Source: Leptospiraceae bacterium (GTDB lineage: Bacteria; Spirochaetota; Leptospiria; Turneriellales; Turneriellaceae). Taken from it: a DNA stretch of 64,000 nt. The DNA is taken from contig JANWWS010000013.1 of assembly GCA_025055765.1 (NCBI GenBank), forward strand, positions 310,001 to 374,000. The letters run 5' to 3'. The notes beneath the pieces were generated by a model, which saw nothing but the letters and a program-made list of their open reading frames with translations, was not told the DNA's origin and made no database searches. Position 1 is the first letter of the stretch; each line of letters starts with the position of its first letter. This document shows positions 8,462-14,650 of this stretch, one piece after another. The translations under genes and the position numbers were made by a program.

Positions 8462-10045
8462 ATGAAAACCTGGCGCATAAAAAGCATAGGCTTAATATTC
8501 TTTGTAAATTTCGTATGGTCGTTATGGGCCGAACACATAATTTTTGTCCATACAAACGACAGCCATGGCTATTTTTATCCAAGAAAGGAAAAAGATAAAG
8601 AAATCTATGGACCACTTGCCCTGTACGCCCATCTTGCAGCTATTCGCATTGAAGCGGCACAAAAAAAAGCCTTTGTGATCCTTACACATGGAGGCGATAT
8701 AAATACAGGTACTCCTGAAAGTGATCTAGTTTATGCCAAGCCTGATATTGAGATTATGAACCATTTGGGCTTTACGGTCACCACCCTTGGTAACCACGAA
8801 TTTGACATCCCCCGACGTGAGCTAGAACGCCAAATGGAGCAAAGTTATTTTCGTTGGCTTGCAGCTAACATTGAAAAAAAAAATGGAGAGCGACTGGCTG
8901 CCCCTGTACTTTTGCTTGAGTTGGGAAGGATACGGCTTGGCATTTTGGGATTAATCACGCAAAGCACCGAAAAAATCAGCGTTCCACAAAACATTAGAGA
9001 TCTCATCTTTGAAGATCCCGTTCGCATAGCACGCTATTATACAGAAGAGCTACGTAAGAAAGCCGACATGGTAGTAGTACTGAGCCATCTAGGATTTTAC
9101 CCTGCAGAAAAAGAGCAGCAACTTAAGTATAAAGGTGATATCGCCATTGCCAAAAATGTTCGGGGGATTGATCTTATCTTAGGAGGACATTCGCATAGCC
9201 TTGTTATCAATGAAAATATCGAGGGAGTCCCAATCTATCAGGCGGACAGTTATTATCGCTATGCTGTGCGGGTGGACTTTGAAGTTAATCCAGGCGAAAA
9301 ACCGCGGCTTTTGTCCCATAGGGTACTATCTTTAGCTGAGTTTCCTGTAGAATGGGCAAAAATAAAAGAACTTGATCCATACCGAACTGAGTACCGTAGA
9401 TTAGAGGAAATTATCCAAAATGCTTTAAAGACAAGCGAAAAGCTTTTCTCGCGTGTAATTGCCCAAAGTGAAGACGACTTTCTTCACGATCGCACAACCC
9501 TATTTCATCAAAGTGTACCTATAGGAAATCTCATTGCTGATGCGCAGCGCCAGTTCACGCAGGCCGATATTGGCATTGTCAATAGTGGAGGGATAAGAGC
9601 GGGCCTTGATAAAGGGCCTATTCTATTAAGAGAGGTCTATACTATCTGCCCTTTTCGAAATACTGTGGGTACCATCGAGCTAAAAGGAAGTGAAATCCGC
9701 GAGCTTTTTCGTCTGCTGCTTATGAGAAAAGAGAATGGCCACTTTCCTCAAATCAGTGGGGCAGAGGTTCATTTTAATAGAGATAACCACACCGTGCGGG
9801 TTTACCTGCGCAAAGATGGCACCTATGTGCCCATAAAGAGCAACCAAGTCTATAAGGTTTCTCTTAATTCATACCTCGCCGCAGGGGGAAATGATTACCC
9901 CGATATAGTTACCAAGTCTCGATTTCACGACACGGGCATGAAAGATAGCGAGATTTTGCAAAAGTTTTTAGAGCAAAGGGGAGTAGTTCGTAGCCAAGAT
10001 TTTGCAGAGAAAAGGATCCGCTTCTTTAGATTAAGAAGGCCATGA
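8462..10045 (+). CDS. Secreted bifunctional metallophosphatase / 5'-nucleotidase
   Basis: 527 residues of the UshA/NTE family, probably periplasmic: a signal peptide covers about the first 23 residues (WRIKSIGLIFFVNFVWSLWA). The metallophosphatase domain carries VHTNDSHG, THGGDINTG, LGNHEFD, VLSHLG and LGGHSHS, supplying the two-metal site. The C-terminal 5'-nucleotidase domain carries IGNLIADAQR, NSGGIRAG and AAGGNDYP. It would strip phosphate from extracytoplasmic nucleotides for salvage; the exact substrate (5'-nucleotides, UDP-sugars or 2',3'-cyclic nucleotides) is open. It overlaps the next gene by 4 bases. Confidence 0.92.
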   Translation: MKTWRIKSIGLIFFVNFVWSLWAEHIIFVHTNDSHGYFYPRKEKDKEIYGPLALYAHLAAIRIEAAQKKAFVILTHGGDINTGTPESDLVYAKPDIEIMNHLGFTVTTLGNHEFDIPRRELERQMEQSYFRWLAANIEKKNGERLAAPVLLLELGRIRLGILGLITQSTEKISVPQNIRDLIFEDPVRIARYYTEELRKKADMVVVLSHLGFYPAEKEQQLKYKGDIAIAKNVRGIDLILGGHSHSLVINENIEGVPIYQADSYYRYAVRVDFEVNPGEKPRLLSHRVLSLAEFPVEWAKIKELDPYRTEYRRLEEIIQNALKTSEKLFSRVIAQSEDDFLHDRTTLFHQSVPIGNLIADAQRQFTQADIGIVNSGGIRAGLDKGPILLREVYTICPFRNTVGTIELKGSEIRELFRLLLMRKENGHFPQISGAEVHFNRDNHTVRVYLRKDGTYVPIKSNQVYKVSLNSYLAAGGNDYPDIVTKSRFHDTGMKDSEILQKFLEQRGVVRSQDFAEKRIRFFRLRRP

Positions 10046-10344
10046 AAAAAATAACTGTTCAAGGGGAAAATCCATCCCGCTTTTCTCGAAAGGTAGAGCG
10101 GGCCCTAAAACTTGGGCCTCTTGGTAAACTCACTCGGTTTTCTTTTGAAAATGACCAATTTGTCATAACTTTCTCGCAGTTGGGCAATTCCCATCTTTAC
10201 TACCGAGTAAGGCCGAGCGAGGATGGTTTTCATGCAGAGCTTGAGCGGGAAGAAGTATCTCTCCTGCACAAAGCTTTTCGTCGTGAAGTGGAAGAGGAGC
10301 TAAAAAGGATCATTACACGCTATGGGGGTATAATTGAAGCCTAG
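10042..10344 (+). CDS. Small cytoplasmic protein of unknown function
   Basis: 100 residues, charged, with no signal peptide or membrane helix. It begins with basic residues (GENPSRFSRKVERALKLGPLGKL), then alternating strands (RFSFENDQFVITFSQL, HLYYRVRP), then a charged helix (LLHKAFRREVEEELKRIITRY), so a small alpha/beta fold is likely. I do not recognise a family. It starts inside the end of the 5'-nucleotidase (ATGA overlap), so it is translated with it, and ends 35 bases before cheA. Being between a nucleotidase and chemotaxis genes says little about function. Confidence 0.65.
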   Translation: MKKITVQGENPSRFSRKVERALKLGPLGKLTRFSFENDQFVITFSQLGNSHLYYRVRPSEDGFHAELEREEVSLLHKAFRREVEEELKRIITRYGGIIEA

Positions 10345-10379
10345 CTTCACAATGTCGGTGGTTTTGACGATAATTGGCT

Positions 10380-13151
10380 ATGGCCACTATTAGCCAAACA
10401 GAAGACCTGCGTATTTTTCTCGAAGAACTCGACGAAAACTTAAACTACCTTGACCAGGCTATTATTGCACTTGAGGAATACCCGGAAAACCGTGAGATCT
10501 TACGAGATGTATTTAGAGCCGCTCATACCTTAAAAGGAAACGCTGGTTTTCTTGGCCTCACCAATCTAGTTGACCTTGGTCATGCCATGGAAACTGTCTT
10601 TCAAGAATTAGAGCGTGGCCATGCCCCGATAACTGCTCAGGTCGTTGATACGTTACTTGCTTGTAAAGACACCATAGCCTCTATTGGCCAAGCTTTAAAA
10701 GAGGGCAAAGATCCCCAGCAAATAGAAGTGGGATCCTTGGTCGCCCGAGTAAACGCTATTTTAAGTGAAGGAGGGGAATCTCTATCACAGACGAAAAGTG
10801 AAGAGAAAGCCACTATTCGAGAAAATCAAAAACTACCTTACCACCCGCAAACCAAGTTGGTTCGCGTATGGATTTCACCCCACGAGCCCGCCCCCGCTGT
10901 TAGAGCCTATCTTGTTCAAACCAAATTAGAGCAATTGGGCGAGCTCGTAGCTTCTTATCCCAAAGAAGAAGAAAGAGAACAGCCAGAGTTTGCTCAATCA
11001 GATAGGGAGCTACTTTTTTATTTAAAGACCAATATTAGCAAAGAGGACATACCGGGGAAAATCAATGTTGATTTAATTGAGCGACTTGAGGTATATGATG
11101 AAATAGAATTAGAGAAACTTGCACATAAACCCAAAACAGAGGAAGAAACACTTACAGCAAAACCAGCCTCAGAAGAATCTCTCGATACAGTGCGTATCCC
11201 TGTGGAGCGCCTGGATACCTTACTTAACCTAGTGGGCGAACTAGTTATTGCCAATAGCGGCCTCTCCCAAATCTATGAACTCATTAAGGAAAAGGAGGGA
11301 CTGCATGAGATAGAAAAGCACTTGCGGGATCGCACAAAAGAAATCTTTCGTATATCTGCAGAAATCCAAGAGCTAGTGATGAAATCCCGCCTCGTGCCTA
11401 TTGGTCAGCTCTTTAACCGCTTTAAACGTTTTGTTAGAGACTACGCATTGCGCAGTGGCAAAAAAATTAAGCTCATTATAACAGGGGAAGACACAGAAAT
11501 TGACAAGAAAATTATAGACGAAATGATAAAACCCCTAACCCACCTCGTTCGCAATGCCTTAGATCATGGCATCGAAGAGGTTGCGCAGAGGTTACAAAAG
11601 GGAAAAAAAGAAGAAGGAGAACTTCACTTATCTGCCTTTCAAGAAGGAAATTACATCAATGTTATTGTTGAAGATGATGGTGCAGGTCTTGATTATAACA
11701 AAATCGTACGCAAAGCCCTTGAAAAGGGTCTTATTAGCAAAGAACAAGCCTCCTCTGTATCAGAAGAACAAGCGAAGATGCTCATTTTTCAACCCGGCTT
11801 TTCGACCAAAGATCAGGCCGATGATCTCTCTGGCCGGGGGATGGGGATGGATATTGTTAAACACAGTGTGGAATTGCTTAATGGCAGCATAGATATCCAC
11901 AGCAAAGTAGATTTGGGTACAAAAGTAGTCATTAAGCTTCCGTTGACTTTAGCTATTATAAACGCACTCATTGTGGAGATTTGTGGTGAAAAGTTTTCAC
12001 TACCCATGAGCTCCATTGTGGAGACTCAACGCATTTCTCAAAACAACATTATCTCTGTAGAAGGAACAGAGATGGTGCAATTACGCGAGACACTTTTACC
12101 TTTAATTAGATTAAATAAAATCTTGGGGCTTGGCGAGAGCAAAAACAGAGAAGTTTTTCCCATTATAGTGGTTGAGTATAATGAAAGTTTGGTTGCCTTT
12201 CTCGTAGACAATTTAATTTCACGCCAAGAACTTGTGATAAAAAGTTTAGCTGAGCACTACCGGCCAGTCGAGGGTATTTCCGGAGCTTCTATTTTGGGAG
12301 ATGGCAGCATTATTTTAATCTTAGATACCCATGGCATTATTCAGCTTTACCGCCGTCTGTCCCGTCAATTTCTCGCTACAGATAGCACTATAAAGGTAAG
12401 TTATATGCAAAAGAACAATCTTTCTGACAAGAATATGGTAGAAGAACATCGCACGCCCCTGGTACAAGAGGAACAAAAGGCACCTCTTATTGATCTAAGT
12501 GACCTACAACTTGACAAGCCCGTAGATCCCCAGGAGAAATTGCGCTCTCAAAGCGAAAAAGCTCTTGCGAAGCTACGAGAACTTTTAGAAGGAGATAACA
12601 AAGAGTTACTGAAAGAATGGCTCAGGCAGGGGAACGTACGAGCTGTGGAAGGAATTCGTGCCCTAACCGGAAACGATTCCATCCGCATTGAAAAAAGTAA
12701 GGGCAGACACCTTAAAGCAAAGAAATTATCTCAACTTATATCCCGCCTTGAATCCACTGAGCTTGATGTGCTAGATTTCATGTTACCAGTGGAACCCATC
12801 CAAGGTGCTGTGCACTTTTTTTTAACCCGCAAGAACGCCGAAAAAATGGTGACCAAGCTGCTAGAAGCAGCAAATTTGCCTGTCCCCAAAGAACTGGAGT
12901 ATGAACCTCTATTTGAAGTTACTAATATTATAGGCTCGAGTTACACTAATAGTTTAACTGCCCTTACAGAAGTCATGGTTGAACCCGGAGTGCCTACCAT
13001 TCTAGCCGACAAACAAGAGATTGTTGCTTCTCTGCGACAAAGATTAACCGACGAGAATTTTGACATCTTATACGTAGAAAATGAGTTTGTTTGGGAAAAG
13101 GAGGATATCTTAGCTGAGCTTTTGATATTTATACCTGAATTAAAAATTTGA
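10380..13151 (+). CDS. cheA: Chemotaxis histidine kinase CheA with C-terminal CheC-like phosphatase domain
   Basis: 923 residues against about 650-700 for usual CheA. In order: P1 HPt with phospho-acceptor His49 in AAHTLKGNAGF (1-110); a CheY-binding P2-like stretch (about 155-245); P3 dimerisation helices from DTVRIPVERLDTLLNLVGELV (about 268); P4 ATPase with N box HLVRNALDHGIE (Asn392), DDGAGLD and GRGMGMDIVK; and a P5 CheW-like domain to about 667. After a charged linker the last 140 residues look like CheC/CheX: Glu846-x2-Asn849-x22-Pro872 matches the dephosphorylase signature ExxN-x22-P. I start at the ATG at 10380; a TTG two codons upstream is less likely. The kinase would phosphorylate the CheY encoded next, and the tail could remove that phosphate. 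Confidence 0.93.
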   Translation: MATISQTEDLRIFLEELDENLNYLDQAIIALEEYPENREILRDVFRAAHTLKGNAGFLGLTNLVDLGHAMETVFQELERGHAPITAQVVDTLLACKDTIASIGQALKEGKDPQQIEVGSLVARVNAILSEGGESLSQTKSEEKATIRENQKLPYHPQTKLVRVWISPHEPAPAVRAYLVQTKLEQLGELVASYPKEEEREQPEFAQSDRELLFYLKTNISKEDIPGKINVDLIERLEVYDEIELEKLAHKPKTEEETLTAKPASEESLDTVRIPVERLDTLLNLVGELVIANSGLSQIYELIKEKEGLHEIEKHLRDRTKEIFRISAEIQELVMKSRLVPIGQLFNRFKRFVRDYALRSGKKIKLIITGEDTEIDKKIIDEMIKPLTHLVRNALDHGIEEVAQRLQKGKKEEGELHLSAFQEGNYINVIVEDDGAGLDYNKIVRKALEKGLISKEQASSVSEEQAKMLIFQPGFSTKDQADDLSGRGMGMDIVKHSVELLNGSIDIHSKVDLGTKVVIKLPLTLAIINALIVEICGEKFSLPMSSIVETQRISQNNIISVEGTEMVQLRETLLPLIRLNKILGLGESKNREVFPIIVVEYNESLVAFLVDNLISRQELVIKSLAEHYRPVEGISGASILGDGSIILILDTHGIIQLYRRLSRQFLATDSTIKVSYMQKNNLSDKNMVEEHRTPLVQEEQKAPLIDLSDLQLDKPVDPQEKLRSQSEKALAKLRELLEGDNKELLKEWLRQGNVRAVEGIRALTGNDSIRIEKSKGRHLKAKKLSQLISRLESTELDVLDFMLPVEPIQGAVHFFLTRKNAEKMVTKLLEAANLPVPKELEYEPLFEVTNIIGSSYTNSLTALTEVMVEPGVPTILADKQEIVASLRQRLTDENFDILYVENEFVWEKEDILAELLIFIPELKI

Positions 13152-13183
13152 CATCTTATCCGAAATTCAAAGAGGGGATGACA

Positions 13184-13552
13184 GTGGCTGGCCCTGCAAA
13201 AATACTAATTGTCGATGATTCCGGATACATGCGCCAGGTAATCCGGAAACACCTGGAAAATAAAGGCTATGAAATCGTTGGGGAGGCCCAGGATGGGCTT
13301 GAAGCAATCCAAAAGTACGTGGAATTAAAACCTGATATTGTTACCATGGATATATCCATGAAAAAAGTAGGAGGAATTGAGGCCACAAAAAAAATCAAAG
13401 CTATTGATCCTAAGGCCAAAATTATTATTGTCTCTGCCTTAGGCGAATCCCGCTTCATTAAAGAAGCAATCCAAGCTGGAGCACACGATTTTATTATTAA
13501 ACCCTTTGCCGAAGAGAGGCTTATTTCTTCGATTAGTAATGCATTAAAATAG
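13184..13552 (+). CDS. cheY: CheY-type single-domain response regulator
   Basis: 122-residue receiver domain: acidic pair Asp11-Asp12 in ILIVDDSG, phospho-acceptor Asp56 in DIVTMDISM, Ser in IIIVSALGE and Lys in IIKPFAEE. No output domain, so it acts by binding, typically to the flagellar switch. It follows cheA directly and is the likely target of its kinase and CheC-like tail. Start choice: GTG at 13184 has AGAGGGG six bases upstream and gives MAGPAKILIVDD; the in-frame ATG at 13178 sits directly on that site, and a TTG at 13148 overlaps the cheA stop but lacks a ribosome site. Confidence 0.92.
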   Translation: MAGPAKILIVDDSGYMRQVIRKHLENKGYEIVGEAQDGLEAIQKYVELKPDIVTMDISMKKVGGIEATKKIKAIDPKAKIIIVSALGESRFIKEAIQAGAHDFIIKPFAEERLISSISNALK

Positions 13553-13561
13553 GAGCCCTAG

Positions 13562-14650
13562 ATGGGCTTTTTAAAAGACCGGCAGATTTTGCTCCTAGAA
13601 GACTCCCCTTTGACGGCCAAATTTCTCAAAGAAGTTATCGAAAAAGAAGATGGAACTGCCATCTGGTACGATGACCTAGAGCGTTTCGATGTGGGAAAAG
13701 AACCATATGACCTGGTCTTCGCCGACTTCTTAATCAAAGGAAAAACCTCGGCAGAGCTTGTCTCGCAGCTAAAAAAACACTACCCTCACCTGCACATTAT
13801 TCTGCATACAGCCCATAGTCTTACAAGCCCTGAAATTGAAAAAAACCGCCATCTTTACAGCGCTATATTAAAAAAACCCGCGAGCGCCGAAGCTGTTTTA
13901 CAAGTTATACGAAGGCACCTAAAATTTCCCTTACAGGGTATAAAGGCACTGATATTGGAAGATGCCCGAGTTTCTCTCCAAGCCATGACTCGCATTTTGG
14001 AAGAATTGGGAGCCACGGTTTTTGCTTTTTCCGACATCGAGGAAAAAAAAATTCTCGCGCAATCTTACGACCTTGCCATACTTGACATATACATTGGAGA
14101 AAAAAAATCCCTTTCGCTTATACCCAAGCTCAAGGTACATAACCCAGGGCTCATTGTCCTCGTAATCTCTTCTTCACCAAATGCCTTACTTGAAGAGCCT
14201 ATTGCGGAAAGCTTGGTATCGTATATTGCGCAAAAGCCGATAACCGATAAACAATTTCGCTCTATTATTTTGGAAATCTGCGGTGCCGCAAGAAAAATCG
14301 AAAGAAGGAAAGAGATACGCATTGAGGGCCGCTTTAATTGCTGGCTTGCCCGTTTCGATCGTGAGTTAAATAAGGCGGGGGTATTTGAGTCTCCCTATCT
14401 TGTGGACATGTCACGGGGGGGGATGTCATTCCAATCTTTTTTTCAATATGAGCCCAACGAAGAAATTTTGATCTGGTTTTTGCCCCAAGAACAATCCCAA
14501 GAGTTGTTAGAAATGCGGGGCACCATCCGTTGGAAAAACGAAGTATCTACTTCAGGCATTGGTAAGATATATGCTTATGGAGTGGAATTTCGACCCCAGC
14601 TTTCCCCCGGTTTTCAAAAATGGGAAAATCTCATTGCCCAACATCAATAA
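13562..14650 (+). CDS. Two-receiver (REC-REC) PilZ protein
   Basis: 362 residues. First receiver (about 5-125) with LLEDSP, Asp55 in LVFADF and lysine in ILKKPAS; second receiver (about 128-240) with LILEDAR, aspartate in LAILDIY and lysine in IAQKPIT; then a PilZ domain (about 248-355) with RRKEIRIEGRF and DMSRGG, the two c-di-GMP-binding motifs (RxxxR and D/NxSxxG). Cytoplasmic. It should combine phosphorylation signals with c-di-GMP level, plausibly to tune motility, since it lies nine bases after cheY in the same operon. Its target is unknown. The last seven bases overlap the convergent lptF/G gene. Confidence 0.88.
   Translation: MGFLKDRQILLLEDSPLTAKFLKEVIEKEDGTAIWYDDLERFDVGKEPYDLVFADFLIKGKTSAELVSQLKKHYPHLHIILHTAHSLTSPEIEKNRHLYSAILKKPASAEAVLQVIRRHLKFPLQGIKALILEDARVSLQAMTRILEELGATVFAFSDIEEKKILAQSYDLAILDIYIGEKKSLSLIPKLKVHNPGLIVLVISSSPNALLEEPIAESLVSYIAQKPITDKQFRSIILEICGAARKIERRKEIRIEGRFNCWLARFDRELNKAGVFESPYLVDMSRGGMSFQSFFQYEPNEEILIWFLPQEQSQELLEMRGTIRWKNEVSTSGIGKIYAYGVEFRPQLSPGFQKWENLIAQHQ

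Follow-up and report, generated by a model that had tools for sequence, protein, structure and literature searches.

The gene at 10380-13151 of the window, by which we mean the whole 64,000-nucleotide stretch analysed, raises the question of whether a CheA kinase can carry a phosphatase for CheY-P on its own chain. An initial annotation of this DNA described a CheA some 250 residues longer than usual, ending in a CheC-type domain. The excess length is real: the open reading frame encodes 923 residues, ~268 of them beyond the end of the CheW domain at residue 655, and the usual CheA is about 250-270 residues shorter than this protein.

The architecture itself is already published for this lineage. 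A survey of the RefSeq genomes of GTDB v95 describes fusions between F1 CheAs and CheC/CheX domains in the Leptospirae class, with a possible dual kinase/phosphatase function (PMC10782961, 2023). The window protein combines the same elements, a CheA with a C-terminal CheC/CheX domain in a Leptospirae lineage, and it shares the architecture, the spirochete class and the proposed dual function. As far as the accessible text of that survey goes, it draws no distinction between CheC and CheX and describes neither the loss of one site nor a distribution beyond Leptospirae. Relative to that text, what is new here is that the fused domain is of the CheC and not the CheX type, that site 1 is lost in every copy, that site 2 is conserved almost absolutely, that the fusion occurs outside the class, and that some relatives carry it with no other recognised phosphatase. 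No experiment on a CheA-CheC fusion protein was found in the literature searched, which lies mostly outside subscription journals.

The kinase core and its neighbours

All five canonical CheA domains are present, in order and each above its Pfam cut-off, and the phospho-accepting His49 of the Hpt domain lies within the motif AAHTLKGNAGF. The features of the kinase part and of the genes that follow it are:

10380-13151, + strand: CheA-CheC fusion, 923 residues; ATG start at 10380, in-frame TTG at 10374
10407-10664, + strand: Hpt domain (P1), residues 10-95; Pfam PF01627, E=2e-15
10860-11093, + strand: CheY-binding domain (P2), residues 161-238; Pfam PF07194, E=4e-10
11187-11384, + strand: dimerisation domain (P3, H-kinase_dim), residues 270-335; Pfam PF02895, E=1e-16
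11529-11948, + strand: ATPase/kinase domain (P4, HATPase_c), residues 384-523; Pfam PF02518, E=6e-17
11964-12344, + strand: CheW-like domain (P5), residues 529-655; Pfam PF01584, E=1.5e-26
13148-13552, + strand: cheY, a single receiver domain; Pfam PF00072, E=5e-31; TTG start, in-frame ATG at 13178
13562-14650, + strand: REC-REC-PilZ protein (Pfam), third gene in order; kept downstream in L040-L046

The cheY gene had been described as following cheA directly, and its reading frame in fact overlaps the cheA stop by 4 bases. The order cheA-cheY-(REC-REC-PilZ) is conserved in close relatives. In other classes the fusion gene is followed by a receiver-domain protein of CheB size, which reads as CheB in the one locus annotated in full (L036), and in genus g6 no CheY match was found beside cheA. 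The position of the REC-REC-PilZ gene (13562-14650) after cheA-cheY hints that chemotaxis is connected to c-di-GMP signalling. Just 5' of cheA, 10042-10344 encodes a 100-residue protein of unknown family with a homologue at the equivalent position in L040.

Identity and active sites of the tail

The features of the tail and of the segment that joins it to the kinase are:

12369-12554, + strand: flexible linker, residues 664-725; pLDDT below 50 in the full-length model
12582-13148, + strand: CheC domain, residues 735-923, two CheC half-repeats; AlphaFold2 (AF2) model, PDB fold match, profile match to 1XKR
12615-12626, + strand: remnant of CheC active site 1, Glu746-x2-Arg749, Asn replaced; non-functional by motif
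12915-12926, + strand: CheC active site 2, Glu846 and Asn849 (EVTN); 57/57 fused copies
12948-12950, + strand: Asn857, invariant or nearly so; 56/57 fused copies
12993-12995, + strand: Pro872 of the signature; 57/57 fused copies

The Pfam CheC model (PF04509) matches residues 846-874 below its threshold, at 12-17 bits against a gathering score of 22, so routine Pfam annotation would miss the domain. The NCBIfam model CheC_Thtogales gives E=3e-10, yet this is far under that model's own equivalog cut-off, and a plain phmmer search of the tail against the PDB is uninformative (best E 0.7), so that a profile is needed. A profile built from 29 fused tails finds Thermotoga maritima CheC (1XKR) first, with E=1.2e-20 over nearly its whole length (chain residues 4-199), followed by Haloarcula CheC (3QTA) and then Thermotoga FliY (4HYN), while no CheX structure passes E=0.01 in the same search. 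Two fused tails from outside the class exceed the Pfam gathering score (L088 with 39.8 bits and L091 with 44.1 bits), which closes the chain of homology for the window tail. Pfam thresholds can thus overlook domains such as the fused CheC tail.

The predicted structure of the tail leads to the same family. The AF2 model, made from an alignment of the window and locus sequences, has a pLDDT of 88.3 and a pTM of 0.84 and consists of two repeats of helix-strand-helix-strand-strand. A fold unlike CheC/CheX had been named beforehand as one result that would refute the assignment, and on this point the assignment stands, since the top match in a Foldseek search of the PDB is CheC 1XKR (TM 0.70, E=1e-8). 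Below it rank FliY, the CheC-CheD complex 2F9Z and Haloarcula CheC, with FliM and CheX lower. Profile, model and conservation together strongly support the view that residues ~735-923 are a real CheC domain, homologous over its whole length and with the CheC fold and its pseudo-twofold halves. The proposal that CheA is fused to a CheC-type domain is thereby upheld, and both profile and fold make the tail CheC-type and not CheX-type.

A CheX-type tail was considered separately and rejected: the Pfam search finds no PF13690 match in the window tail, and CheX structures rank under CheC and FliY in the fold search. The tail does share with CheX (T. maritima 1XKO/1SQU, Borrelia 3HZH) the superfamily, one active site per chain and the ExxN signature, but CheX has a shorter chain, another arrangement and a weaker fold match (TM about 0.5), and the spacing from Asn to Pro is 19 in the CheX of this genome compared to 23 in the tail.

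The signature Glu846-x2-Asn849-x22-Pro872 is present exactly as the initial annotation gave it, and the profile alignment sets Glu846-x2-Asn849 against the second ExxN site (REIGN) of T. maritima CheC. Across 49 fused tails (48 of them distinct), whose median pairwise identity is 22%, just four of the 195 columns show no variation, namely Glu846, Asn849, Asn857 and Pro872, and the Asn849-Pro872 spacing is 23 in all 49. Invariance at this level of divergence implies that the signature is not due to chance. With further copies added, Glu846, Asn849 and Pro872 are each kept in 57 of 57 fused CheAs. The profiles used to gather the sequences themselves include the motif; the matches, however, span ~200 positions and most have an E far under 1e-20, so that the fused copies were not selected by the motif alone. 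The reading of these three residues as a preserved active site is therefore borne out by profile, fold and conservation alike.

The first site has gone the other way. A CheC is expected to have two ExxN active sites, and the tail has site 2 intact and E746/R749 at site 1; Glu and Asn of site 1 are kept together in 0 of 57 fused copies. To judge from the sequences, the fused domain is a CheC reduced to one site, that is, a single chain with two CheC halves of which only the second is intact. It resembles T. maritima CheC (1XKR, 2F9Z) in whole-domain fold, in the second ExxN site and in its organisation in two halves, and differs in that the T. maritima protein stands alone with two ExxN sites, whereas the window tail is tethered to CheA with one. 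Among stand-alone CheC-like proteins of the phylum, six of eight keep both sites and two, in L118 (429-1073, - strand) and L119 (484-1161, - strand), keep neither.

Tether, inheritance and distribution

In the full-length model residues 664-725 fall under pLDDT 50, whereas the domains fold. Measured between the edges of the domain hits, the linker is 76 residues long here and mostly 39-484 residues in relatives, and it is polar. With a linker so variable and polar, kinase and phosphatase are unlikely to be held in a fixed geometry. In two related genomes (L047:2533-6585 and L050:2500-6585) the linker between the CheW and CheC domains reaches 465-484 residues; it is very acidic, of low complexity and without a Pfam domain.

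Kinase core and tail have a common history. Their pairwise distances across 37 proteins agree with a rho of 0.83, a value reached in none of 999 permutations, which indicates that kinase and tail travelled together. A domain tree made to see whether the fusion arose once takes two changes in its best form, of which the starred branches force one, and has long branches, so that the fusion may have had one origin or more. Sequence comparison and structural model thus describe a one-site CheC on a flexible linker that is inherited jointly with the kinase.

The tail is present in 17 of 17 searched relatives from the same family or order. The matching relatives are Leptospiraceae, Turneriella (placed in class Leptospiria by NCBI) and metagenome assemblies of Spirochaetia/Spirochaetota. 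For the scan of contigs we used a profile from the closer 18-row alignment, the 29-row alignment being too diverse. Across the phylum, 106 of 393 genomes matched, a count that includes some stand-alone CheC and FliY. All of the 21 long matches retrieved from genomes placed outside the window's class are CheA-CheC, and in the five such fusions run against Pfam every CheA domain is present. Many families that fall outside the class of the window therefore have the fusion, which is wider and more uniform than published. Two genomes, G008 (L117) and G040 (L023, L121), carry two different CheA-CheC fusions each. Two records titled Caldithrix sp. and Candidatus Hydrogenedentota (L042, L046) have a cheA-cheY locus of the Leptospiria type and are probably mislabelled assemblies.

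In five tail carriers (G002, G003, G006, G013, G016; two of these assemblies are less than 90% complete) the searches gave no CheX at E<=1e-5, no CheZ and, in the profile scan, no CheC apart from the fusion. CheD is detected in four of the five, G013 being the exception, and nearly all tail carriers have CheD.

Predicted role at the receptor array and competing readings

We consider the best explanation, and a probable one, to be a class-typical CheA with a linker-tethered C-terminal CheC-type phosphatase domain for CheY-P, with one active site and situated at the receptor array. The kinase part would phosphorylate its own His49 and hand the phosphate to the CheY encoded by the next, overlapping gene. 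The tail would strip it from CheY-P again through the surviving site, in the manner of CheC, CheX and FliY, with Glu846 positioning CheY-P and Asn849 orienting the attacking water. By analogy with the CheC/CheX/FliY family, we infer the catalysis, CheY as its target and the physiological effect. The phosphatase would be located in the receptor-kinase array, as opposed to the motor or the cytoplasm at large; CheY-P would probably turn over faster close to the array, and kinase and phosphatase would probably be present in matched amounts. Counting against this explanation are the other candidate phosphatases of the genome (CheX and FliY), the missing CheY match beside cheA in genus g6 and the CheB-size receiver protein that follows the fusion in other classes.

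Among the rival readings, the strongest has the tail serve chiefly in CheD docking and adaptation: CheY-P at the intact site would boost the capture of CheD by the kinase-tethered CheC, away from the receptors, and dephosphorylation would be a minor by-product. In Bacillus subtilis CheC the phosphatase activity is minor and CheD binding major in importance (PMC3513319), a precedent for such a role, and 2F9Z, the CheC-CheD complex, ranks near the top of the fold matches for the tail. This genome encodes CheD, as do nearly all tail carriers, among them four without stand-alone CheX or CheC. However, invariance is confined to the catalytic signature and Asn857, with no separate surface patch, and G001, G012 and G013 carry the tail with CheD undetected, in assemblies that are 54-83% complete. 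CheD docking as the chief role thus appears rather unlikely to us, although phosphatase and CheD roles may both be true. Less probable again is a tail that prefers another receiver domain over the adjacent CheY, for example the downstream REC-REC-PilZ protein, whose gene is the conserved third one in close relatives, or CheB, given the CheB-size receiver protein after the fusion in other classes and its reading as CheB in L036. CheY, however, is the substrate of the CheC-family enzymes characterised to date, and in the lineage of the window no gene lies closer than cheY.

A non-catalytic tail, with a CheC-like fold that serves in binding alone as the middle domain of FliM does, is very improbable. 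FliM structures do share the fold, and site 1 has been lost throughout the fused copies, but all 57 retain the Glu, Asn and Pro of site 2 despite very low overall identity, and both sites were lost in L118 and L119, which means that loss is possible where it is tolerated. An artefact, by read-through or by a misassembly joining two separate genes, has nothing in its favour and practically no likelihood, as it is refuted by recurrence: the frame is uninterrupted here and in dozens of independent genomes, and the histories of core and tail are congruent.

A tethered phosphatase of this kind would matter since the site at which CheY-P is destroyed shapes the gradient and the lifetime of the steering signal. 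The known places of breakdown are the motor (FliY), the array by recruitment (CheZ) and the cytoplasm. A covalent kinase-phosphatase would make and break the signal at one spot in a fixed 1:1 ratio. FliY (T. maritima 4HYN and the FliY of this genome, L035) offers a likeness, in that a CheC-type domain is fused to a partner that brings it to one structure of the cell, but FliY places the phosphatase at the motor whereas CheA-CheC would place it at the receptor array. Both activities on one CheA chain, as predicted for the window protein, also recall CheA3 of Rhodobacter sphaeroides, which Porter et al. in 2008, as cited in PMC10782961, are said to have described as a bifunctional kinase-phosphatase. 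The phosphatase of CheA3 is not known to be a CheC domain; it acts on CheY6-P and is of unrelated origin. With one site lost, the other intact and relatives without another recognised phosphatase, the published idea of a dual function becomes directly testable.

More tentatively, and with doubts that outweigh our confidence, the kinase-tethered one-site CheC might be the ancestral spirochete arrangement, with CheA as the main place of CheY-P breakdown and, where separate CheC, CheX and CheZ are missing, as the only CheC partner left for CheD. If so, a single protein at the array would handle excitation, signal removal and CheD-based adaptation.

In the genome of the window itself the tail has company. 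The initial annotation saw no separate CheC, CheX or CheZ in the window, and indeed none is matched within it. The statement that there is no other phosphatase is true of the window and has to be rejected for the genome. A stand-alone CheX (69 bits, E91-x2-N94) is encoded at C49:236199-236477, which lies ~74 kb upstream of the window. An intact signature, E151-x2-N154-x22-P177, is also present in a FliY outside the window (L035); no CheZ was found in this genome. The tail is hence not the sole candidate phosphatase here. A second CheA-type kinase of 649 residues, also outside the window, has no tail. The suggestion that the response time is set within one chain is not supported for this genome, given the stand-alone CheX, the FliY with its signature and the tail-less second CheA. 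The genome further encodes CheD (C20:69820), four further CheW domains and six receptors. Around the CheX gene (L034, G000:C49:234000-239000), three open reading frames on the - strand (15-2165, 2149-2619 and 2618-2974) place CheX between a single-receiver protein and a kinase of 717 residues. This kinase has a CZB domain (a zinc-binding chemoreceptor domain), a PAS-like domain, Hpt and HATPase domains and no CheW domain, and it appears to be a CheA-like protein outside the usual array design, with a CheX of its own.
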